Shown: piece after piece, positions 24,856 through 35,564 of the stretch
Layout: each line of letters starts with the position of its first letter
Numbering within the stretch: the first letter of the stretch is position 1
Assembly (NCBI RefSeq): GCF_014695375.1
Contig: NZ_JACJOG010000046.1
Location: 186,001-250,000, forward strand
Direction of reading: 5' to 3'
Length of the DNA stretch: 64,000 nucleotides
From: Coleofasciculus sp. FACHB-T130
GTDB taxonomy: Bacteria; Cyanobacteriota; Cyanobacteriia; Cyanobacteriales; FACHB-T130
Translations under genes and position numbers: made by a program
The notes under the pieces: model-generated
What the model was told of the DNA's origin: nothing
What the model saw: the letters and a program-made list of their open reading frames with translations, nothing else
Database searches by the model: none

Positions 24856-25215
24856 GTGCTTAGATCCCATCATTTTTCAGCGATTCTCATCGCTTCTCCA
24901 TCTATTTTTGATTGGACAGAAGCCGATTTCTTAGATTCATTAAAAAGTGCGGCTCAAGATGCCCATCTAACTCCCGTTGGTCAGCTTTCTTTTACTTTTC
25001 AACCACAGGGAGTATCAGCAGTTCTCTTACTGGAAGAATCTCACGTCGCCTTGCATTTTTGGCCTGAAGAAGGGAAAGTTACCGTTGATATCCATGTGTG
25101 TGATTATCAGCAAGATAATTACGAAAAAGCAAAAACTCTTGCTGAATTACTTACTTTGGAGATTGGCGACAATTCCAATAATGAGCAGTGGAAATATTTC
25201 TGCGTTACTGGTTAA
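24856..25215 (+). CDS. speD: AdoMet decarboxylase-family protein (SpeD-like, class 1B)
   Basis: The 119-residue protein resembles small prokaryotic S-adenosylmethionine decarboxylases, which self-cleave to a pyruvoyl enzyme and make the aminopropyl donor for polyamines. The cleavage motif is LLEESHVALHFWPE: Ser62 would become the pyruvoyl group, His67 matches the processing His, and Cys82 in DIHVCDY matches the catalytic acid. Residues essential for activity therefore seem kept, although the rest is divergent. The GTG start follows AAAAGGAC. It starts 11 bases after coaBC but is functionally linked to the opposite-strand cluster with a spermidine-synthase-like gene. Its stop lies one base from the end of the convergent DUF350 gene. 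Confidence 0.8.
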   Translation: MLRSHHFSAILIASPSIFDWTEADFLDSLKSAAQDAHLTPVGQLSFTFQPQGVSAVLLLEESHVALHFWPEEGKVTVDIHVCDYQQDNYEKAKTLAELLTLEIGDNSNNEQWKYFCVTG

Positions 25216-25216
25216 T

Positions 25217-26068
25217 TTAAACAGCCCAAGCGATTAAAAATGAAGCCGCAATATAAGCAAAAGCTTCAATTAGTCCAGCACCCAAGTTCGGGATTTGTTG
25301 ACGTGCAATTTCGTCTGATATTTTTACTCCTGGCACTAAAATTAAATCTGCTACCCAGCGAATTACAATCAGTGAGGCTAAGCAAAATAGGAGTGTTAAA
25401 CCATATTGAGTAAAACTAATTACCCAATTTTGAAACTCGGCGGCAAATGCTACGCGCACGATATTACCTGTGGCAATAAGTAAGCCCGCTAACGCCACAC
25501 CAGCAGCAGGATTATTGCGCCTTTCGATCTCTCCAAATACATTGTATTGAGTGACACGAGGATAGAGAACGCTCACCAAAACGAGTACGCCTAAGCCAAC
25601 GATCCAGCAGATAAACCCTACCAGCCAAGTGCCACTTTCCCCGCCGAGTGCGGCGCTGAGAATGAGTCCATTAGCGATGTGATTGCCAAATTATACAGCA
25701 GCAGCGCCTGTGTTCCGTTCTTCAAGAATTTCGCGCTTACAATCAAAGCAACGCAAAATTAAGCGATCGCCTACCCAAGCGCCAGCCAACATGAATAAAA
25801 TGACTGTTGCGCCATAGCTTGCCAAATTGAGTAATTTGTCCTGCCAATTGCCTGAAGGTTGTCCTAAAACACCACCCAGCGCAATGACGATACCGAGGTA
25901 ATATCCGACGAGAGCGATCGCTACGGCTGGATTATCTTTAACAAATAGTTCCAAGTTTAATTCCATGCGACGAAATAGTTTTTGGTAAGCGAGTTGTCCC
26001 AGCCAGAACAACCCAAAGCCTACGACTAGCTCTAGAAGAATAAATCCTAGTTGACTAACTTGTTCCAC
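25217..26068 (-). pseudogene. DUF350 membrane protein gene split by one in-frame TAA
   Basis: Two open segments lie in one frame. The first (26068 down to 25691, GTG start after AAGGAG) encodes about 125 residues with the DUF350 pattern VKDNPAVAIALVGYYLGIVI and ends GAAAV. After one TAA (25691-25693) the frame continues FGNHIANGLILSAALGGESG through more hydrophobic helices to ERRNNPAAGVALAGLLIATG, the second DUF350 repeat. Together they make the usual double-repeat protein of about 283 residues. The stop replaces what is normally an acidic residue (GAA to TAA). It may be a pseudogene, two separately made halves, a readthrough site or a sequencing error. DUF350 proteins are inner-membrane partners of polyamine/ATP-grasp gene clusters. 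The gene is last in the operon after the FemAB-like gene. Confidence 0.85.
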
Positions 26069-26104
26069 TACTTAACTCCTTCTCAATATTTCTTTGATAT
26101 TCAA

Positions 26105-27163
26105 TTAATTCGATATTTTTAAGTGTTGTAATAAGCCAATCATTGTATCTGCTAGTTGGTCATAAAAAAAGTAATCATGAGCACCGATAGTTTTTACTGA
26201 TACGCCACCAAACTGACTTTTAAACCGAGAAAACTTTGCATAGCTATGATTAGGATCGTGAGTAAAACCATAGAAATCATAGAAAGTGCAACCGCGTGAT
26301 TTTGCCCGTTGCATTGCAGCCCAGTGTAAACTGTAAGTTGCCATGACTTCCGGATGTTCAAAACTACGTCCGCCGTAGAGATAAGTTGCGCGATCGCCCC
26401 AATAAACAACTAAGATAGCTGCTAATATTTTTCCTTGCCAGATTGCGAAACCTAGCTCTGCCATATTTGCCTTAAATAAGGTTTGGCAAAGATTAATGAA
26501 AAATTTGTAGGGTTCACCAAAAAACTGCTGGCGTTTTACCGTTTCCCAAAAAATATCGTAAAACACAGGAATTGCCTGTGAGTCTGTTCTAAATTCAGTT
26601 TCTACACCATGACGCCAACTCAAACGCAAATTATATCGTCCTTTTGGCTTCATAGTTGCTAACATTTTAGTTTCTGTTAACTGTAAATCAATTAACAGAG
26701 TTTCCGAGGGCAATAAATCAGCAGGTGCACGCATAAACCCGGAAAGCAAATCTAGTTTTTGCTGCCATAAAGGTTCAATTCGTAGGGCAACCGCTCCTAT
26801 TTTTTTAGCTAAAGATGCCGCTTCTTCCAGCAATATCTGCATTCCTTCTTTTTCCAATTTTTCAGGTAGCAGAGGGGCACCGGGAGCAACTAATAAATTG
26901 GCTTTATTAGGATGGGGATAAAAATAAAAAATGCATCCTCCCACTAATTCTTGCTTGTAAAATAAACCATAACGGAAGGTTTTATATCCTTCCAATTCTT
27001 TGAAGTCTGCCCAAGTCCAAGACTGCATAAAGCATCCTGCGGGAGCAGTTTGCACAAGCAAGTCCCAATGATGGCGTTCTTCTGAATTTAGTAGTCTAAG
27101 GGTTAAAGATAATTCTTCCAATTGAATTTTGTGCCCATTATTTACATCTAAAATGTCAGTCAT
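26105..27163 (-). CDS. FemAB/FemX-like aminoacyltransferase (GNAT fold)
   Basis: The 352-residue protein resembles lipid II:glycine glycyltransferases and related peptide ligases with duplicated GNAT domains. It shows FMQSWTWADFKELEGYKTFR near residue 45, a KPKGRYNLRLSWRHGVE motif around 172 like the KxRxNIRxAxKxGV of FemX proteins, and the C-terminal YGGRSFEHPEVMATYSLHWA and FYDFYGFTHDPNHSYAKFSRFK. Family members transfer amino acids from aminoacyl-tRNA to peptides or lipid-linked precursors. Here it overlaps the end of the spermidine-synthase-like gene by eight bases, so the two are translationally coupled. A role in attaching an amino acid or peptide to a polyamine-related product is inferred from context. 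Peptidoglycan modification is the alternative. Confidence 0.8.
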   Translation of the reverse strand: MTDILDVNNGHKIQLEELSLTLRLLNSEERHHWDLLVQTAPAGCFMQSWTWADFKELEGYKTFRYGLFYKQELVGGCIFYFYPHPNKANLLVAPGAPLLPEKLEKEGMQILLEEAASLAKKIGAVALRIEPLWQQKLDLLSGFMRAPADLLPSETLLIDLQLTETKMLATMKPKGRYNLRLSWRHGVETEFRTDSQAIPVFYDIFWETVKRQQFFGEPYKFFINLCQTLFKANMAELGFAIWQGKILAAILVVYWGDRATYLYGGRSFEHPEVMATYSLHWAAMQRAKSRGCTFYDFYGFTHDPNHSYAKFSRFKSQFGGVSVKTIGAHDYFFYDQLADTMIGLLQHLKISN

Positions 27164-28619
27164 TATTCGAGCGATTTGTTAATAAGTTTATCAACCAAAT
27201 ACCACCAGCCGCCGTCAAAACAAATCCTATAGTTCTATTGAACCAACTCCAGTCTCCTTCGCTATAATAAGTATTTCCTCCCGAATAGCCGCTAGAGCCA
27301 GTAGAATGGCTACTTCCTGAATAGTATCCCTTGGCAAATACAGCATCTGGAGATGCTAAATTGGCCATTAATAAAGTTACTGAGAGCATCATAATAAATT
27401 CTGCTGCTCGTGGTGATAGCGTTAAAATTTGCTGTCCAGTGCGGATTTTATCAGACAATTGTTTTAGTTCAGCGGCAATCTGAGGCGGCAGTTCTTGAGC
27501 ACGTTCTAAAATACTTCCCAATAAACGTGATAAGTCGATTTCTGATAGTAATTTTTGAAGGTGGGCTAACCATTCTGCTGTCATCTTTGGGTTGTGATAA
27601 GGATGTTGTACCGGCAATAGTTTGCTAGTATCTATCTCATTACCCTGAACTTCTTCTAACCACCTTTGGGCGGTTGATTCTAGCTGAAAGAGATCCCGCA
27701 ACCCTATCACTCCAGTTCCAGCTTCTTCAATGTCTAAAAAATTAATGGTTTTTTCATCAATTGCTTCGCTAATTTGAGGCGATTGAATATGAGGATTTAG
27801 TAAGTAGTAAAATAGCTGCGGGCAATCCAGGGTGTGAATATTGACGCTGTGGCGGCTATGCGCGATCGCATTCTCAAACTCAAACACTTTTAGCAGATTT
27901 TTAAGCGCGATCGCCTGTAAATTTTCAGGTAGGGTAATTCCTTCTATTTCAGAACGCTGAATTGCAACTGGAGACGCTAAGAAGAACCCCCAATTGCCAT
28001 AATCATGCCTTTGAAAGGATGGGATTGTTAATTGTAAAGGCTTTGCCATCAATCCAGCAGCTAACAAGGTTTGATATAAACACCAAAAACCTGTTGTCCG
28101 ATTTTCTGGAGAAACACCATTCGTGCTAATAATCCCACCTGGATAAAGAACCCGGCTAATCGTTTTAAACCATTCTTGGCTGTATATCGCCGTATCTTCT
28201 GTACAACTAGGATAAGTGAAATCGCAAATAATAACGTGATAAGATTTTTCCTTGAGTGTCGATAAAAACTCAAAAGCTTCTTGCGTGTAAATTGTTAAGC
28301 GATCGCTTTCTAAGCTTCCCTCGTTAAAATCCTTAAATACCCTTTTCCCTAGTTCTAAAACTTCTGGGTTGTAATCCACTAAATCAACGTGACTAACTTC
28401 AGGAAATCGCAACACATCCCGTGCAGCTAATCCATCTCCGCCGCCACAAATCAAGACTTGCAACTCTGTGTGAGGAAATCGTTTGACTGCCAGCGCTACC
28501 GATGGAATCACTAAATACTCGTGATAAATGGCTTCATCAGCGGTATCAAACTGCAAATCACCATTGATATAAAAAGCCAATCCGTTGTTATGTTGTTCAA
28601 TAAATAAAGATGTAGGCAT
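27156..28619 (-). CDS. Spermidine-synthase-like protein with C-terminal membrane segment
   Basis: This protein has 487 residues. The first ~235 form an aminopropyltransferase fold: DLQFDTADEAIYHEYL (substrate gate), ICGGGDGLAARDVLRF (AdoMet loop), VDLVDYNPEVLELGK, and IICDFTYPS. The Asp in CDFTYPS corresponds to the catalytic Asp of SpeE, but the second Asp of the usual D-[ST]-[ST]-D-P motif is Tyr, so amine specificity may differ. The remaining ~250 residues are unlike SpeE. They include a helical linker, a hydrophobic stretch near 415-435, a Gly/Ser/Tyr-rich segment and a final TM helix (IGFVLTAAGGIWLINLL). It follows the DUF4178 gene by seven bases and overlaps the FemAB-like gene. The enzyme probably acts at a membrane. 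Confidence 0.82.
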   Translation of the reverse strand: MPTSLFIEQHNNGLAFYINGDLQFDTADEAIYHEYLVIPSVALAVKRFPHTELQVLICGGGDGLAARDVLRFPEVSHVDLVDYNPEVLELGKRVFKDFNEGSLESDRLTIYTQEAFEFLSTLKEKSYHVIICDFTYPSCTEDTAIYSQEWFKTISRVLYPGGIISTNGVSPENRTTGFWCLYQTLLAAGLMAKPLQLTIPSFQRHDYGNWGFFLASPVAIQRSEIEGITLPENLQAIALKNLLKVFEFENAIAHSRHSVNIHTLDCPQLFYYLLNPHIQSPQISEAIDEKTINFLDIEEAGTGVIGLRDLFQLESTAQRWLEEVQGNEIDTSKLLPVQHPYHNPKMTAEWLAHLQKLLSEIDLSRLLGSILERAQELPPQIAAELKQLSDKIRTGQQILTLSPRAAEFIMMLSVTLLMANLASPDAVFAKGYYSGSSHSTGSSGYSGGNTYYSEGDWSWFNRTIGFVLTAAGGIWLINLLTNRSNND

Positions 28620-28626
28620 TTTTTTA

Positions 28627-29256
28627 CTATCCGAATACCATCAACAATATTCCGCAAGCCATCATGAAACTGGCTACTAATGCTTGGAAAATCACGCTTT
28701 CCAAAAAACTCTTCTTCGCTCCTCGTTCAATGTGAGAAAAATCTTCTGGTTTTACTATTTTGGTAGAGTAAATATGTCGTTTGCCATCAGGCCAAGCTTC
28801 AATTGCTAAATTCCATTGATGATCCTTGTCCCAATAATCCCACGTAATTCGAGATGTCTCCTCTTCATCTCCTTCATAATTACCCTTGGTTGATGATTCA
28901 AAGTAATAGCGTTTACCCAAGGCTTGTAATTCTGGGTAAGGCATTTTTCCTCCTTGCATATCGTGCCAAAAACGAATAGCCAAATTATTCAGTGATTCTG
29001 GTTCAAATATCTTAGGGTCTGAAATTTCTTCGGCAAGATACCAATTGACTAAGGATTCAGGATTTTGCGGATCAATTTCTCGTAGCAAGTAGTATTCTTT
29101 TCCTGCCTGAGATTTTAGCAACCACTCCGTTGTTTCATATCCATAGGAATCGTCATAAGTGCTGTATTCTTTAATCTGCCACTGAACGCCATAATATTTT
29201 ATGCGATCGCCTGGACGTAAATTTTCAAGTTGAGTTTTCGTAGTAATGGGATACAT
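28627..29256 (-). CDS. DUF4178 protein with C-terminal TM helix
   Basis: The 209-residue protein contains one DUF4178 unit: LENLRPGDRIKYYGVQWQIK at the start, TEWLLKSQAGKEYYLLRE in the middle, and a ITWDYWDKDHQWNLAIEAWP beta-rich segment. A C-terminal TM helix follows (VIFQALVASFMMACGILLMV). DUF4178 is a beta domain of unknown activity that, from memory, co-occurs with polyamine enzymes, DUF350 and PspA-like proteins. Here it is the first gene of a four-gene minus-strand operon (DUF4178, SpeE-like, FemAB-like, DUF350). The HIP1 core GCGATCGC lies within its 5' part. About 200 AT-rich bases separate it from the kinase-GUN4 gene upstream. Confidence 0.82.
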   Translation of the reverse strand: MYPITTKTQLENLRPGDRIKYYGVQWQIKEYSTYDDSYGYETTEWLLKSQAGKEYYLLREIDPQNPESLVNWYLAEEISDPKIFEPESLNNLAIRFWHDMQGGKMPYPELQALGKRYYFESSTKGNYEGDEEETSRITWDYWDKDHQWNLAIEAWPDGKRHIYSTKIVKPEDFSHIERGAKKSFLESVIFQALVASFMMACGILLMVFG

Positions 29257-29454: not shown

Positions 29455-30840
29455 CTACTCAAGGCGATAGAAGAGGTTCAATAACCCGACCCACCAACCA
29501 ACTTCACAAAAAACATATCCGCTAGGAAGATGACCTGCGGGAGCGCGATCGCAATCAAAGATAAATTCTTCATAAGGAACCCAAGCGCCATCAATCCGCC
29601 ATCCGACGCGATCGCCTAAAATACACAAAATCTCATAATTTGCGCTTCTCGTCCCTCCGATCCTTTCCCAGATATATTTTTGGACGCTAAAACCAAAGCG
29701 TCCTTTGCTGTGTTTTATCCAAAGTTGGTTAATGATCCGAAGGTCTGACATTGGAAAATTTTTGATATCTTCCACTCTCAGCCAACCTTCTGTTTCTCGA
29801 CCAGAAATTTTCAGCATAACCGTCGTGGTTTCTTCATCCGCTTCTTGCCACTTTCCTAACGCTAAAAAAGTCTGTAGTTGCCGGTAATCTATCTTTGACG
29901 CTGAACTTTGCCGATTTGTTAAAAAATTCCGATTTGTAGCGATTGAACTAGCATTATAAGTTTTTGAAACCGGGATATTGCTAGATAGTGGCTGCTTAAA
30001 ACTGTAAGTAGAAATCTTATTAAGATTAAGCAATTCTAGCCACTCCTGCACCGACTGAGGGCGTTCCTCCGCTTGAAATTCCATCCCTTTAAGAATCGCC
30101 TGATTGGCTAAATTACTAATACTGGAATTGAGGCGTTGCGGTGAATTTAACCGAATCCCCGCAGCTCTCGCAGGCGCAGGTAGCGGGACTTCTCCAGTCA
30201 GCAAATAGTAGAGCGTCGCCGCGAGTGCATAAACATCCGTATACTCGCCCCGTCTTGCTTGCTGAGCATACTGTTCAATTGGAGCAAAGCCTGGAGTAAA
30301 GGTTTGCGTATGAGTCTGCGTTATATCGGGGATAAATTCCCTAGCAATGCCAAAATCAATCAGTACCGCCTGGAATTTTTCGGCACGCACCATGATATTA
30401 GATGGCTTCACATCCCGATGCAAAAAGCCCCTGTCGTGGATGAAAGTTAGTGCGTCACCAATCTGGCGGATGTAGTGTAATGCTTCGGTTTCCGACAAAA
30501 CACCCAGATTAAGTACGCGCTGCTCTAAGTTTTCTCCCTCAACATACTCCATCGCCATGCAAGGTAACTGTCCTTCAGAGAAGGCATTGTCAATCTGCAC
30601 AATATTAGGGTGTCGGCACACAGCGAGTCGCAGCGCTTCTTTCTGGAAATCTCGATTAAATTTGTCTCGGTACGCTGTAAATTCGCGTTTAGTCAGTACC
30701 CGTTCATTCAGCGTCTTGATGACGACAAAATTCCCTTTTTTGTCCCTAGCTAGAAAAGTGATGCCATAGCCTCCTTCTCCTAGCACCCTTTCAACGATGT
30801 ATCTTCCACCATGCAACATCTGCCCAGCGGCCCAAACCAT
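29455..30840 (-). CDS. Ser/Thr protein kinase fused to a GUN4 domain
   Basis: The 461-residue protein starts with a Hanks-type kinase (about 12-265): glycine loop VLGEGGYGITFLAR, VAIK-type Lys in VVIKTLNE, catalytic loop FLHRDVKPSNIMV, and DFG in LIDFGIARE. After a Ser/Asn-rich linker, residues about 315-461 form a GUN4 domain with LGKWQEADEETTTVMLKISG and VQKYIWERIGG. GUN4 binds Mg-porphyrins and activates Mg-chelatase. As a kinase C-terminus it is a recurrent cyanobacterial architecture and may sense tetrapyrroles. No TM helix is present. A truncated related kinase with a similar upstream sequence lies at 31225-31401, indicating tandem duplication. Confidence 0.92.
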   Translation of the reverse strand: MVWAAGQMLHGGRYIVERVLGEGGYGITFLARDKKGNFVVIKTLNERVLTKREFTAYRDKFNRDFQKEALRLAVCRHPNIVQIDNAFSEGQLPCMAMEYVEGENLEQRVLNLGVLSETEALHYIRQIGDALTFIHDRGFLHRDVKPSNIMVRAEKFQAVLIDFGIAREFIPDITQTHTQTFTPGFAPIEQYAQQARRGEYTDVYALAATLYYLLTGEVPLPAPARAAGIRLNSPQRLNSSISNLANQAILKGMEFQAEERPQSVQEWLELLNLNKISTYSFKQPLSSNIPVSKTYNASSIATNRNFLTNRQSSASKIDYRQLQTFLALGKWQEADEETTTVMLKISGRETEGWLRVEDIKNFPMSDLRIINQLWIKHSKGRFGFSVQKYIWERIGGTRSANYEILCILGDRVGWRIDGAWVPYEEFIFDCDRAPAGHLPSGYVFCEVGWWVGLLNLFYRLE

Positions 30841-31266: not shown

Positions 31267-31401
31267 AGAATGCGATCGCTTGCCCTTCTTTTGATTGCAT
31301 TTATTCTCAGCAAGATAGGCGATCCCAAAGCCACCTTTACCCAACTGCTTTTCAATAATGTATCGTCCGCCCTGCAACTTTTGTCCAGGATGCCAAACCA
31401 T
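31225..31401 (-). pseudogene. Truncated 5' end of a Ser/Thr kinase gene
   Basis: From ATG 31401 the frame gives MVWHPGQKLQGGRYIIEKQL followed by GKGGFGIAYLAENK, the start and glycine loop of a Hanks kinase, closely parallel to the intact kinase at 29455-30840 (MVWAAGQMLHGGRYIVERVL). Homology ends after about 34 residues (31300). The remaining codons to the stop at 31225 are unrelated. The sequence before the start also matches that of the intact gene (for example TTAATTTTGGCATA versus CTAATTTTGCCATA in forward orientation), so promoter and 5' end were duplicated and the rest was lost. Confidence 0.7.
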
Positions 31402-31556
31402 TGCTAAAGCTGCCTCGACACTAGGGTTAATTTTGGCATAAGGGTAGCCGTTCGCTTACACTGACTTCTGGCACCCTCGCTACACCCCATTTCCAGCATG
31501 GGTCGCTTCTAGCGTAGGTTTGTATGCCAGTCAAAATGAGGAGAGCCAAGTCAGGG

Positions 31557-32471
31557 ATGAAAAAAATATTGTTGTCCGGTTTGTTGTTGTTGCTACCGCT
31601 AGCAGCATGTTCGCCCAACCCCTCCGGGACTTCAGCGACGAACGGTGGAACTGAGGCAAAACCTCTGACAATCGGTGCCATTCCCGATCAAGATCCGCAA
31701 AAGTTACAGCGTCAGTATGAGAAGCTAGCTGCTTATCTGGAAAAGGAACTGGGTGTGCCAGTTGAGTATAAGCCGGTTACTGACTATACGGCGGCGGTTA
31801 CTGTGTTCAAAGTAGGGGATTTGGATTTGGTTTGGTTTGGGGGATTGACGGGGGTGCAGGCACGGTTGCAGGTGCCCGGTGCAGAAGCGATCGCGCAACG
31901 CGACGTAGACGCCCAATTTCACAGTCTCTTCATCGCCAACAAAAAGGCTGGGCTGAAGCCATTTAAAGATATTTCTGGTTTACAACAACTAAAAAAACAT
32001 AGCTTCACTTTTGGCAGCGAATCTTCAACATCCGGGCGTTTAATGCCTCAATATTTCTTGCAACAAGCTGGACTTAAGCTTGAAGATTTGAAAGGTCAAG
32101 CTGGTTTTTCTGGCGATCACGATAAGACGATTAAATTGGTGGAAGCAGGCACCTACGATGTCGGTGCTGTGAATGAAAGCGTCTGGAAAAAGCGAGTCGA
32201 TGCCAAAGAAGTAGACTTGAACAAAGTAGAAGTCCTTTGGGAGACACCCGCTTACTACGACTATCACTGGGTCATTCATCCCGATGTCAAAGAGTACTAC
32301 GGTGAAGATTTTGTTGAAAAAGTGCAAAACGCCTTTTTAAAACTAGACCCCAAGGTACCAGAGCAAAAAGAAATTCTTGACCTTTTACAAGCAACTAAAT
32401 TTATTCCTACCCAAAACTCCAATTATGCTCAAATTGAGGAAATTGGTCGGGAAATTGGCAAAATAAAGTGA
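31557..32471 (+). CDS. phnD: Phosphonate/phosphite-type ABC transporter substrate-binding lipoprotein
   Basis: The 304-residue protein has a lipoprotein signal peptide (MKKILLSGLLLLLPLAAC, lipid on Cys18). A PhnD-type periplasmic binding domain follows: LTIGAIPDQDPQKLQRQYEK, then LVWFGGLTGVQARLQVPGAE, GSESSTSGRLMPQYFLQQAG and YDVGAVNESVWKK. The ESSTSG stretch is the phosphonate-binding signature. It would capture phosphonate, phosphite or a similar oxyanion and pass it to the permease encoded downstream. An upstream in-frame start (31524) is possible, but 31557 gives a proper signal peptide. The ligand cannot be decided: no phn lyase or ptxD gene is in the window. Confidence 0.9.
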   Translation: MKKILLSGLLLLLPLAACSPNPSGTSATNGGTEAKPLTIGAIPDQDPQKLQRQYEKLAAYLEKELGVPVEYKPVTDYTAAVTVFKVGDLDLVWFGGLTGVQARLQVPGAEAIAQRDVDAQFHSLFIANKKAGLKPFKDISGLQQLKKHSFTFGSESSTSGRLMPQYFLQQAGLKLEDLKGQAGFSGDHDKTIKLVEAGTYDVGAVNESVWKKRVDAKEVDLNKVEVLWETPAYYDYHWVIHPDVKEYYGEDFVEKVQNAFLKLDPKVPEQKEILDLLQATKFIPTQNSNYAQIEEIGREIGKIK

Positions 32472-32476
32472 TGTAA

Positions 32477-32932
32477 ATGACCGAAGCTAACTTTAAAATT
32501 GCAGAAAACTCCGCTAGTGAAACTCTAGTGGAGTTTATCTGGGAATTCTACAAATTTGAACACCTAAAATTTGATAAATCCCTTGTTTGCAAGGGGTTAG
32601 CAAAGATTTTGCAGGATGATTCTCTAGGACGAGTGTGGCCGATCTAGCATGGCAACAAAGCGATTGGCTACATCGTCCTGACCTTTGGCTACAGTTTGGA
32701 ATTTCGAGGACGTGATGCATTTATTGATGAACTTTACATCCGAGAGAGTTATCGGGGGCAAGGGGTAGGCATGAGCGTAATTCAGTTTATAGAAAGTGTT
32801 TGCCCTTCTCCAGAAATTCAAGCACTTTATTTAGAAGTCGAGCGGAAAAAGACAGCAGCACAAAATTTGTATCAGAAGGTTGGTTCTAAAGATCGCGATC
32901 GCTCTCTCATGACTAAATGGATAGCAAACTAA
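32477..32932 (+). pseudogene. GNAT acetyltransferase gene with in-frame TAG
   Basis: From ATG 32477 the frame reads MTEANFKIAENSASETLVEF and continues to GRVWPI, where TAG (32645-32647) interrupts it at codon 57. The same frame resumes HGNKAIGYIVLTFGYSLEFR and contains the acetyl-CoA motif ESYRGQGVGMSVIQF, ending at 32932. Family proteins usually have Gln, Glu or another polar residue where the stop occurs (VWLIxHxxKAIGY), so a CAG-to-TAG change is the simplest explanation. The gene starts five bases after phnD and overlaps phnC by 16 bases, so it was an integral part of the operon. The N-terminal part is shorter than some GNATs but otherwise complete. Confidence 0.8.
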
Positions 32933-33696
32933 GCAGAGAAGTGAACTCATCTGCGCCAATATTTGAACTGAAAAACGTTTCTAAGCAATTTGGACGTTTT
33001 GAATCTCTCGCTGAGATTAACTTACAGATTTCGGCAGGTGATCGCGTGGCGCTGGTTGGTTCTAGCGGCGCGGGAAAAAGTACGCTAATTAATTTACTCA
33101 ACGGTACACTGCTACCCACTCAAGGAGAAGTTTGGGTACTCGGTCGCAACCTCGCCCATCTGCGTCCCAAGTTGCTGCGTCAAGTCCAGCGTCAGATGGG
33201 TACGATTTACCAACAATTCCACTTAGTTGATAATTTGCAGGTGATTCACAATGTCAATGCAGGACATCTAGGGCGCTGGTCGTTTTTCAAAGCAGCAGTT
33301 TCGCTGATTTATCCTTTAGAAGTCGAAACTGCTCATCAAGCTTTGGCACAGGTGGGGATTCCAGAAAAACTTTACGAACGTACCGATAGCCTTTCTGGTG
33401 GTCAACAGCAACGGGTAGCGATCGCTCGCGTCCTCGTGCAAAATCCCACCGCCATCCTTGCCGACGAACCCATTTCCAGCCTCGACCCCGAACGCAGCCG
33501 CGAGATTATGGATTTATTGCGCCAGTTGAGTATAGAAACCGGGAAAACTTTAGTCACCAGTGTCCACGCGATTGAATTTGCTCGCAGTCATTATCAGCGA
33601 ATTATTGGTCTGCGACATGGGCGTATTTTGTTTGATATTCCCGCTGAAGACTTATCCGATGCAATGATTGAAACTCTCTACCAAACCAAGGACTAA
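32917..33696 (+). CDS. phnC: Phosphonate-type ABC transporter ATP-binding protein
   Basis: The 259-residue ATPase has Walker A GSSGAGKST (around residue 48), the Q-loop in GTIYQQFHLV, signature LSGGQQQRVAIARVL, Walker B AILADEP and switch His in VTSVHAIEFA. The sequence FELKNVSKQFGRFESLAEIN at the start and the GHLGRWSFFKAAVSLIYPLE insertion are typical of PhnC. It energises the importer formed with the phnD and phnE products. The start ATG lies inside the 3' end of the GNAT gene, and the permease follows 65 bases later. Confidence 0.93.
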   Translation: MDSKLSREVNSSAPIFELKNVSKQFGRFESLAEINLQISAGDRVALVGSSGAGKSTLINLLNGTLLPTQGEVWVLGRNLAHLRPKLLRQVQRQMGTIYQQFHLVDNLQVIHNVNAGHLGRWSFFKAAVSLIYPLEVETAHQALAQVGIPEKLYERTDSLSGGQQQRVAIARVLVQNPTAILADEPISSLDPERSREIMDLLRQLSIETGKTLVTSVHAIEFARSHYQRIIGLRHGRILFDIPAEDLSDAMIETLYQTKD

Positions 33697-33761
33697 TCCT
33701 AAATATTTCTATTCAAATTCCTCTGCGTTTTTTTCATCTCTAGCGGTTCGATATCTGAAGC

Positions 33762-35564
33762 GTGCCACAAACAAGCGATCGCCATCCAACTACTCTCCCT
33801 CAGCGCCCCTCCCCGCTTAACTGGCGTACTGTATGGGGATTGCTGTTTGTCGCGTCCCTCATTTGGTCGTTGCACGTAGCAGGCGTATTCCAAGGCAATT
33901 TAATCAACTCAGGTGGCTGGAACCTTGTCTGGCGCTTTCTCGTAGCTGCATTTTCACCCGATCTCAGCCCGGAATTTCTCCACCTCACTCTAGATTCCAC
34001 CCTGAAAACCCTCGCTTACGCCGTGTGTGGCACTTTCTTCAGCGTGCTGATTGGTTTGGTGGGGGGTGTTTTTTCTTCTGATATCTGGTGGCAATCTGTT
34101 TCAAATTCAAAACTCAAAACTCAGACGCGATCGCTTGCGTCTCTACAACTCAAAATTCAGTCTCCTTGGGTAGTAATACGAGGAATTTTGGCAATCCCCA
34201 GAGCAATTCACGAGTTAATTTGGGGATTATTTTTTGTCAATATTTTTGGACTCGATCCGCTAGTAGCCGTGTTAGCGATCGCAATTCCTTTTGGTGCGAT
34301 TACTGCCAAAGTCTTCTCCGAGATTCTAGACGAAACCCCCCGCCAGCCACTCATGGCACTGCTCAATAGCGGCGTTCCTCCTCTGAATGCCTTTGCTTAT
34401 AGCTTGATTCCCCAAGCCTTTCTAAATCTGCTATCCTACGCTTTCTATCGGTTTGAGTGTTCGATTCGTTCCGCCGCCGTATTAGGAATTATCGGTGCAG
34501 GTGGACTGGGGTATCAAATTCTCCTCAGCCTCCAATCTCTGCGCTATGAGCAGATGTGGACGTTTTTGATCGCCCTAATTGTATTAAATGGTGCTACGGA
34601 TTTTTGGAGTGCTTTGCTACGCCACCGTTTAGGTGCGCCGAGTCGCCTGGATTTGAACGTCCTAAATCTCCAAGGGCGCAAACAGCGGTTTTATCAAAAA
34701 GATCCAGTCGTGCAGGTGTCCTTTCTCGGCGGCATTGTTTTAGTCATTTTCTCCTTCTGGTACGTCCAAGCTGATTTCTCAAAGCTTTGGGCACCGCGAA
34801 CCGTACAGCTATTGGCAGGAGTGTTTCAGGATATCTTCCCACCGGATGGGAGTCAGGTGAGTCAACTTTTTACCCTTTCGGCTCAAACCCTTGCTATGTC
34901 AATCCTGGCAATGGCTGGGGCTGGATTAGGCGGCATTTTATTATCTTTTCCAGCCGCAAATAATTTCCTGTTGCCAGGAGGGATTTTAGATACTGGCAGA
35001 AGATCCAGCAAACTCCCCTCATCAAAGGGGACAGCGACTCTAATACCCGCCTTTTTAAGGGGGGCTAGGGGGGATCTACGAGCAACTGCTGTACTGATTT
35101 TTACCCGCTTCCTACTACTGTTTGCCCGTGCCGTCCCCGAACCTATTTGGGCGTTAATCTTTCTATTTGTATTGTTTCCAGGTATCTTACCGGGAGCGAT
35201 CGCTCTCGGTTTACACAACTTAGGTATCCTAGGGCGTCTGATGGCGGAAGTAACGGAAAATCTAGATGAACGTCCCTTGCGATCGCTTAAAGCATTGGGC
35301 GCGAGTGGTTCTCAAGTCTTCCTCTACGGCGTCTTACCCCGCACTTTGCCCCGCTTTATCGCTTATATCCTCTACCGTTGGGAAGTCTGCATCCGCGCCA
35401 CCGTCATCGTCGGATTAGTGGGTGCGGGTGGATTAGGTCGCTTGCTCGCGGAACAACTGAGTAGCTTTGACTACAAAGGTCTCCTAACCACTCTAATCGT
35501 GTTTCTCGCCCTCACTTTTATCGTAGATATGATTAGTGCCTCAGTACGACGGACATTAAGGTGA
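33762..35564 (+). CDS. phnE: Fused double PhnE-type permease with repeat-derived inserts
   Basis: This 600-residue protein contains two PhnE-like permease modules in tandem (about 25-300 and 310-600), each with the EAA-type motif (LLNSGVPPLNAFAYSLIPQA and LKALGASGSQVFLYGVLPRT) and the FRFECSIRSAAVLGIIGAGGLG/YRWEVCIRATVIVGLVGAGG end. Both halves carry extra residues in the loop just before the conserved RxxLxxxRAxPE segment: about 112-133 (SNSKLKTQTRSLASLQLKIQ) and 406-443 (containing SSKLPSSKGTATLIPAFLRG). The DNA of both inserts is made of intergenic repeats, in frame. The GTG start at 33762 lies in a weak context. The permease should still assemble if the loops tolerate the inserts. Confidence 0.88.
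   Translation: MPQTSDRHPTTLPQRPSPLNWRTVWGLLFVASLIWSLHVAGVFQGNLINSGGWNLVWRFLVAAFSPDLSPEFLHLTLDSTLKTLAYAVCGTFFSVLIGLVGGVFSSDIWWQSVSNSKLKTQTRSLASLQLKIQSPWVVIRGILAIPRAIHELIWGLFFVNIFGLDPLVAVLAIAIPFGAITAKVFSEILDETPRQPLMALLNSGVPPLNAFAYSLIPQAFLNLLSYAFYRFECSIRSAAVLGIIGAGGLGYQILLSLQSLRYEQMWTFLIALIVLNGATDFWSALLRHRLGAPSRLDLNVLNLQGRKQRFYQKDPVVQVSFLGGIVLVIFSFWYVQADFSKLWAPRTVQLLAGVFQDIFPPDGSQVSQLFTLSAQTLAMSILAMAGAGLGGILLSFPAANNFLLPGGILDTGRRSSKLPSSKGTATLIPAFLRGARGDLRATAVLIFTRFLLLFARAVPEPIWALIFLFVLFPGILPGAIALGLHNLGILGRLMAEVTENLDERPLRSLKALGASGSQVFLYGVLPRTLPRFIAYILYRWEVCIRATVIVGLVGAGGLGRLLAEQLSSFDYKGLLTTLIVFLALTFIVDMISASVRRTLR
34103..34160. repeat. GAGACGC-type repeat inserted in frame in phnE, first half
   Basis: AAATTCAAAACTCAAAACTC is followed by AGACGC (34123-34128) pairing with GCGTCT (34137-34142) and then CTCTACAACTCAAAATTCAG. 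This is the composition of intergenic repeats (compare 14003-14025), yet it is translated in frame. Confidence 0.7.
34990..35088. repeat. GGGGGGCTAGGGGGGATC-type repeat inserted in frame in phnE, second half
   Basis: The segment contains CTCCCC/GGGGAC arms and CCTTTTTAAGGGGGGCTAGG followed by GGGGATC. This G/C-run palindrome is a known dispersed repeat type of cyanobacterial genomes. Here it is read through without frameshift between two TM regions. Confidence 0.7.

Follow-up and report, generated by a model that had tools for sequence, protein, structure and literature searches.

The 64,000-nucleotide stretch of Coleofasciculus sp. FACHB-T130 analyzed here (hereafter the window; contig NZ_JACJOG010000046.1, positions 186,001 to 250,000 of the forward strand) belongs to a draft genome of 6.2 Mb in 60 contigs and carries, at window positions 24856-29256, five genes that constitute a conserved module. 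They encode a small S-adenosylmethionine (AdoMet) decarboxylase-like SpeD, a DUF350 membrane protein, a FemAB-family protein, a spermidine-synthase-like membrane protein for which we use the name SpeE*, and a DUF4178 protein, each scoring over its Pfam cut-off at the place assigned to it in a preliminary description made from the sequence alone. Handles starting with G and L denote genomes and loci, respectively, G000 being the genome of the window. The features of the locus, in window positions, are the following:

24856..25215, plus strand: small AdoMet decarboxylase-like SpeD, 119 aa, GTG start (PF02675, 68.3 bits)
25217..26068, minus strand: gene for a membrane protein with two DUF350 domains in a single frame (PF03994, 71.9 and 71.3 bits)
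25691..25693, minus strand: in-frame TAA between the two DUF350 domains (encodes Glu in all 20 unbroken relatives)
26105..27163, minus strand: FemAB-family (double GNAT) aminoacyl-transferase-like protein, 352 aa (PF02388, 110.6 bits; PF13480, 58.6 bits)
27156..28619, minus strand: SpeE* (PF01564, Spermine_synth, 85.0 bits; the structural model resembles spermidine synthases)
27327..27350, minus strand: PDAVFAKG motif of SpeE*, at the end of its first C-terminal hydrophobic helix (motif scan of relatives)
28212..28214, minus strand: Tyr136 of SpeE*, replacing the last Asp of DxxDP (alignment of 26 module proteins)
28627..29256, minus strand: DUF4178 protein of 209 aa, rich in beta structure and with a hydrophobic C-terminal helix (PF13785, 58.2 bits; mean model confidence, pLDDT, 90.1)
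29455..30840, minus strand: Ser/Thr kinase-GUN4 gene, a neighbor (Pkinase and GUN4 matches)

The layout given in the preliminary description also holds. The SpeE* and FemAB genes overlap by 8 bp (27156-27163), and the SpeD gene, which starts 11 bp after a dfp-like gene, converges on the DUF350 gene with a single base between the two stops (SpeD ends at 25215, DUF350 starts at 25217).

Conservation and spread of the module

Among 60 related genomes, full-length SpeE* orthologs (at least 59% identity) are present in seven, against 37 with any SpeE match, and the same seven genomes harbor FemAB (E 1e-30) and the double DUF350. Any DUF350 match occurs in 12 genomes, the matches in the other five being partial or weak, and DUF4178 also occurs in 12, namely the seven module genomes and five with an adjoining, more distant SpeE fused to a seven-transmembrane (7TM) region. 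The coincidence of SpeE*, FemAB and double DUF350 in the same seven genomes indicates that the module is more than a chance association. In a class-wide sample of 388 genomes, SpeE* was detected at E 1e-40 in 33 (one in two pieces, one partial), and short loci around it contained FemAB in 28 of 29 cases (the exception being L064) and DUF4178 in all 29. Similarly, at 39 named cyanobacterial loci SpeE* is accompanied by FemAB and DUF4178 in every case, by the second DUF350 half in 31 and by SpeD in 23, with short contigs accounting for some of the misses. These counts are not independent, because the samples overlap in the relatives they contain and certain named loci come from the same genomes as the fetched stretches. 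The preliminary description had treated the genes as one system to be sought in other cyanobacteria, and the recurrence of the set bears this out. It had also proposed a look for PspA or ATP-grasp neighbors. Of the 144 Pfam families found in 77 flanking proteins, the 25 most frequent include neither these nor CesT/Tir or band-7, single cases being possible. The link to PspA-type stress systems is therefore one of family resemblance only.

The linkage of SpeE* and FemAB extends to Armatimonadota and Chloroflexota. FemAB lies downstream of SpeE* in ten of the 12 loci that do not come from photosynthetic cyanobacteria: five in Armatimonadota (L190, L193, L194, L195, L227) and one each in Obscuribacterales (L196), Herpetosiphonaceae (L197), Sericytochromatia (L198), Geomonas (L184) and a bacterium (L189); in L191, one of the remaining two, the contig ends inside SpeE*. 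In Geomonas sp. Red32 the genes for SpeD, DUF4178, SpeE*, FemAB and double DUF350 are consecutive on one strand. SpeD proteins covering the full length of PF02675 lie beside SpeE*-FemAB in Geomonas (whole model, 117.9 bits), in Obscuribacterales L196 (after femAB, positions 1-106 of 107, the called frames having 23 bp in common) and in Calothrix brevissima L175 (after femAB, all 107 positions). A DUF2617 gene (36.4 bits) lies upstream in L227, and DUF2617 is mentioned for related operons in the available text of Ravi et al. 2024 (PMC11237479). The other 28 hits of the same scan (L199-L226) have no partner genes by tblastn with the window proteins at E 1e-5, and DxxDP is retained in the five of them that were checked.

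The small SpeD subtype follows the module closely. Among the 60 relatives it occurs only in module genomes (six of six), the seventh, G024, having a canonical-type SpeD. In a set of 39 module genomes searched whole, SpeD is found in 23, of the small type in 21 and canonical in two; in 17 of those 21, the small SpeD and the module are at most about 5 kb apart. The 16 genomes without SpeD are exactly the 16 of family f55, which we take to be a Pseudanabaena family. G034, where two AdoMet_dc pieces in neighboring frames were taken as a broken canonical SpeD, was not counted as small, and in each of G074, G303 and G139 an additional AdoMet_dc match at another place is very weak (22.5-25.4 bits). 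Six loci (L074 9173-10252, L075, L076, L077, L082, L084) have genes of one cluster immediately upstream of the small SpeD; the five that were scanned match DUF1611, and in four loci the gene overlaps SpeD by 4 bp.

Of all the parts, DUF350 is the one most frequently damaged or displaced. The preliminary description named its family correctly, with one correction to be made: in the window two domains lie in one frame of 284 codons, counting stops, split by a lone TAA. The sister species (L031) has an unbroken gene of 283 aa. The TAA position is Glu in all 20 relatives whose frame crosses the linker intact, a count that leaves out the broken 21st copy (L090) and the named loci, and G000 alone among the seven module genomes has a stop inside the gene. 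At the named loci the gene is shortened or frameshifted in L164, L168 and L173, and the second half was not seen beside FemAB in eight of 39. A whole-genome search found no DUF350 match in G340 (37 of the 39 module genomes match), and in several f55 genomes DUF350 lies far away from SpeE*. Relative to the sister species, the ratio of nonsynonymous to synonymous substitution rates (dN/dS) is 0.15 for the half before the stop, 0.05 for the half after it and 0.17-0.20 for the other four genes, so all parts of the module look to be under purifying selection. The low values of both DUF350 halves suggest that the TAA is either a very recent change or a draft-assembly error.

The Ser/Thr kinase-GUN4 fusion gene and an IsiD gene near the module show the window to be cyanobacterial. 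The former adjoins the module in L031 and L032, is nearby in L033 and is elsewhere not a general neighbor; it is probably outside the module. In the sister species another copy lies next to the first, at a place where the window shows only a 34-residue match (31300-31401, minus strand). Further on, positions 31524-35564 (plus strand) encode a phosphonate-type binding protein, an ABC ATPase and a permease of 600 aa; the permease matches BPD_transp_1 in two stretches and resembles a fusion of two permeases.

Active sites and membrane tails

SpeE* comprises an aminopropyltransferase-like domain (residues ~1-230), a middle domain (~230-400) and a C-terminus made up of a hydrophobic helix, a Gly/Ser-rich loop and a second hydrophobic helix. 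Foldseek searches with its model (mean pLDDT 70.6, predicted template-modeling score 0.65, with a low-confidence tail below 50) matched spermidine synthases (best 1uir, E 9.1e-19), and the fold, the catalytic Asp and the site for decarboxylated AdoMet (dcAdoMet) of spermidine synthase (SpeE, EC 2.5.1.16) are all present. All 26 module proteins compared retain the donor and catalytic residues Q23, Y32, H33, E34, GGGDG, D82 and D133, while in all of them the last Asp of DxxDP (D136) is lost (Tyr in 14, Phe in eight, Cys in three, Ser in one) and Q167 is replaced by Asn. This Asp and Gln, which presumably contact putrescine, are both kept in 16 of 16 canonical SpeE rows checked (locus L021 gave no row) and in six of six classic 7TM proteins. 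SpeE* thus lacks both acceptor-side residues of SpeE; the 12 further members examined have Val, Phe, Leu, His or Tyr instead of the Asp, and against the TIGR00417 speE model SpeE* reaches 88.5 bits, below the cut-off of 249.55. The loss of the acceptor-side Asp makes spermidine an unlikely product of SpeE*, in line with the preliminary description, for which plain spermidine synthesis would have counted as a refutation. PADLOC returned two matches, both to SpeE* (mad2, 51.3 bits; MTase_II, 14 bits), which were taken to reflect a shared methyltransferase-like fold.

On a quick tree of 55 rows, module SpeE* proteins group with nine rows from Armatimonadota, Chloroflexota and Sericytochromatia on one side of a branch with SH-aLRT support of 100, forming a clade of 28 rows separate from the 7TM and canonical groups; L196 and L189 were left out, and long branches meet at the clade's branch according to a warning of the tool. 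A second trait of SpeE* is its tail. The motif [PR]Dxx[FY][AG]KG follows a hydrophobic stretch in all 74 SpeE* relatives scanned, a set that includes duplicates, as some named loci and fetched stretches are from the same genomes. The scan covered 77 loci, the start motif not being found in L189, L197 and L198 (for the latter two the tail motif can be seen in the sequence), and in L195, where the pattern caught a second FGKG, PDNAFAKG was recognized by visual inspection. Searched as a DNA pattern, PDx[VA]F[AG]KG matched once in each of the seven module genomes and nowhere else in the 60 genomes, and a reversed-pattern control had no match in them. Past the motif, a Gly/Ser-rich loop leads to a second hydrophobic stretch in most cyanobacteria and in Geomonas. 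In Armatimonadota and Obscuribacterales we observed an extended tail, with a Gly/Ser-rich stretch and a further region of about 300 aa past [FY][AG]KG (L195 6944-9436, L196 6998-9730, L227 7001-9487 and L193 2339-4627), without Pfam match in the two cases run, L195 and L196. Signal peptidase sites have small residues at positions -3 and -1, and PDxVFAKG would be compatible with such a site, yet its fixed Asp, Lys and Gly, and nearly always Pro, exceed what cleavage would need.

The SpeD residues highlighted in the preliminary description, Ser62, His67 and Cys82, show no variation across the 19 small SpeDs aligned, where 30 columns are invariant in all. The protein aligns to 2iii and 1tlu, and ungapped on the latter, which we take to be the Thermotoga maritima enzyme, the three residues correspond to residues 63, 68 and 83. 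In the available text of PMC10407285 these are the processing and catalytic residues of the T. maritima enzyme. The Ser, His and Cys of class 1b AdoMet decarboxylases are thus in place, and Ser62 is predicted to be the pyruvoyl serine. Against TIGR03330 (SAM_DCase_Bsu) the protein scores 65.5 bits, below the cut-off of 75.65.

FemAB scores well above the PF02388 cut-off of 24 bits, and its nearest solved chain is 6snr, a lipid II:glycine glycyltransferase (E 2.9e-18), followed by FemX. It belongs to the same family as the FemX/FemAB peptidoglycan cross-bridge ligases (6snr, 1ne9) and keeps a Lys on the N-terminal side and one on the C-terminal side: Lys55 and Lys315 are near-invariant in module FemAB proteins and are presumably, by their position, the counterparts of the FemX lysines. 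Unlike those ligases, it adjoins an aminopropyltransferase and does not come near the cut-off of either NCBIfam model it matched (49.3 bits against 260.35 and 44.8 bits against 500). For the DUF4178 model, Foldseek returned nothing below E 0.035. VIA-align placed EF-P/IF5A N-terminal domains at ranks 1, 2 and 4-12 (best Z 5.6 over 62 residues, 2.6 A), a likeness that we did not use, as Z values below 8 may, according to the tool, reflect no more than a common arrangement and DUF4178 has no invariant Lys (IF5A carries hypusine). Neither DUF350 nor DUF4178 is known to have an established activity.

Known relatives of the module

The preliminary description mentioned a link between DUF350, DUF4178, SpeD and SpeE-like genes, and such clusters are indeed published (Ravi et al. 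2024, mSystems, PMC11237479). The available text of that paper proposes a polyamine or aminopropylation link to membrane state and includes one group of clusters with an ATP-grasp ligase; relative to this group, FemAB occupies the position of the ligase, as had been suggested. Like the CesT/Tir-PspA operons in the same text, the module combines DUF350 (YjfL) and DUF4178 with a SpeE-like membrane protein. The SpeE-like protein there is 7TM-fused, whereas SpeE* has a C-terminal hydrophobic tail and no N-terminal 7TM. The module further differs in having FemAB (all 39 named loci and 28 of the 29 class-wide ones), in the loss of the acceptor Asp, and in that PspA and CesT are not among its commonest neighbors. 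An AdoMet decarboxylase clustered with DUF350 and a fusion of a major facilitator superfamily (MFS) protein with spermidine synthase was reportedly found by Li et al. in 2019. That cluster reportedly likewise brings SpeD and DUF350 together with a SpeE-like membrane protein for a function other than making polyamines, but its SpeE has another architecture, and FemAB and the small SpeD subtype are additional in the module.

The clusters of classic 7TM SpeE (PRK03612-like) with DUF4178 (L037-L043), found in five of the 60 relatives, share the SpeE-like and DUF4178 components. However, they keep DxxDP (six of six), their genomes have no FemAB match at E 1e-30, and in five of seven loci a separate small Gly-rich peptide is encoded upstream in place of the module's fused tail. 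These peptides (L037 6582-6845, L038 11471-11731, L039 1321-1620, L040 8423-8686, L043 8096-8332) have a hydrophobic start, lie just upstream of the 7TM SpeE and end in GPG[GS]GK or GTGFGK. DUF4247 proteins encoded about 2 kb away from SpeE in two of the 28 scanned loci, both of Actinomycetota (L225 4004-4984, L226 4527-5000), end in RGRGPGAGK. Elsewhere, one GK-type peptide ending was found in 518 kb of other loci.

In the literature searched, from which subscription papers were mostly outside, DUF350 appears with DUF4178 in PMC11237479 alone, as far as its available text goes, and FemAB is not mentioned jointly with spermidine synthase or with aminopropyl. A FemAB-linked clade with lost acceptor residues, a PDxVFAKG tail and a spread to other phyla was not found there either. 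The general kind of cluster (SpeD, SpeE-like membrane protein, DUF350, DUF4178) is published. The earlier interpretation is supported as regards the module, its published kin, the SpeE site and the position of FemAB, and is not supported as regards its PspA link. It did not include the second DUF350 domain with its stop codon, the lost acceptor Asp, the PDxVFAKG tail or the 16 SpeE* genomes in which SpeD went undetected.

A candidate two-step envelope modification

We tentatively favor, at somewhat less than even confidence, a membrane-bound system that aminopropylates an envelope acceptor other than a polyamine and then aminoacylates it through FemAB. SpeD would convert AdoMet to dcAdoMet; SpeE*, held by its C-terminal helices with the catalytic domain in the cytoplasm, would transfer the aminopropyl group from dcAdoMet to an acceptor other than putrescine, probably an envelope lipid, peptide or protein kept at the membrane. 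FemAB would acylate the new primary amine using aminoacyl-tRNA, and DUF350 and DUF4178 may serve as a membrane scaffold or in holding and moving the substrate. The FemAB step would be the counterpart of that of the glutathionylspermidine-synthetase-like ATP-grasp ligase in one related cluster group. Glutathionylspermidine-type ATP-grasp enzymes and FemAB both form an amide on a primary amine, which is why one could stand in for the other. The product may be peptide-like. Of this scheme, the gene content, the linkage, the kept donor-side and catalytic residues, the lost acceptor-side ones and the separate clade are observed, and the topology, the step order, the donor where SpeD is lacking, the acceptor and the product are inferred.

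Several observations weigh against this two-step scheme. The main one against a simple dcAdoMet pathway is the lack of any detectable SpeD in 16 of 16 f55 genomes with SpeE* (best E for a small-SpeD profile 0.38), even though the donor residues are retained in all four f55 SpeE* proteins that were checked. No FemAB was seen next to SpeE* in G142 (L064, L091), L187 has no FemAB match in the 384 bases after SpeE*, and DUF350 is moved, shortened or missing in several module loci. The small SpeD, being below the NCBIfam cut-off for AdoMet decarboxylases, could use another substrate, and some SpeD homologs do so according to the available text of PMC10407285. The activity of FemAB with aminoacyl-tRNA is assumed from its family, the contacts of SpeE residues with putrescine and the aminopropyl amine are presumed ones, and K430 of SpeE* would, if the guessed topology holds, lie on the membrane side opposite the catalytic domain.

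The f55 genomes, which retain SpeE* with DUF4178 and mostly FemAB, also lend themselves to an alternative in which SpeE* uses AdoMet itself and moves a 3-amino-3-carboxypropyl group, SpeD being optional or regulatory. Nicotianamine-type opine synthases and betaine-lipid synthases carry out such transfers from AdoMet. Yet the GGGDG Asp, which we take to meet the aminopropyl amine in spermidine synthases, is kept in 26 of 26 proteins, all 23 other module genomes have SpeD, linked in 17, and an empty search for class 2 AdoMet decarboxylases matched no positive control either and shows nothing; we consider this alternative unlikely. Plain synthesis of spermidine or another polyamine by SpeD and SpeE*, with FemAB, DUF350 and DUF4178 as bystanders, would suit the families and folds of the two enzymes and could be wanted in G000, which has just this SpeD and this SpeE homolog and no match to NspC-type carboxyspermidine decarboxylase (none over cut-off in 17 genomes, with five weak matches). 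We set it aside as very improbable because of the altered acceptor residues and the gene linkage: gene order is kept over families and phyla, SpeE*, FemAB and double DUF350 are never apart in the 60 genomes, and G024 carries, in addition to SpeE*, another SpeE homolog along with a SpeD of the canonical type.

It is also conceivable, if quite improbable, that the complex is non-catalytic or sensory, with SpeE* and FemAB acting as degenerate binding subunits in a membrane stress system alongside DUF350 and DUF4178, two families not known to have an established activity. The membrane tails would fit such a role, and related clusters carry PspA or band-7 genes in the available text of PMC11237479. 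The retention of Asp133 (26 of 26), of the SpeD triad (19 of 19) and of the near-invariant FemAB lysines nonetheless speaks for probable catalysis. Decay of the module in G000 through its cut DUF350, in a system active in most relatives, is distinctly unlikely. The TAA at a conserved Glu position and the recurrent DUF350 loss (L164, L168, L173, L090, G340) point that way; against it, the remaining four genes of G000 are intact, every part including the half past the stop has a dN/dS of at most 0.20, SpeE* and DUF4178 are kept in genomes with damaged or distant DUF350, and the TAA may be an assembly error.

Within the favored two-step scheme, one proposal for the acceptor is a long shot: the modified molecule would be the system's own Gly/Ser-rich polypeptide, a Lys or Lys-like amine of which would be aminopropylated and then aminoacylated. 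The substrate would be the SpeE* tail starting at the near-invariant PDxVFAKG in this branch and the small peptide (or DUF4247 protein) ending in RGxGPGxGK in the classic branch. If true, this would constitute a hypusine-like, two-enzyme protein modification of bacterial membranes.

The module offers a testable gene set for roles of AdoMet decarboxylase and SpeE-like membrane proteins beyond polyamine synthesis, and since the FemAB partner suggests amide chemistry on the transferred aminopropyl group, the product is narrowed to few masses. The clade-wide loss of the acceptor Asp provides an annotation marker for aminopropyltransferases that are probably not spermidine synthases.

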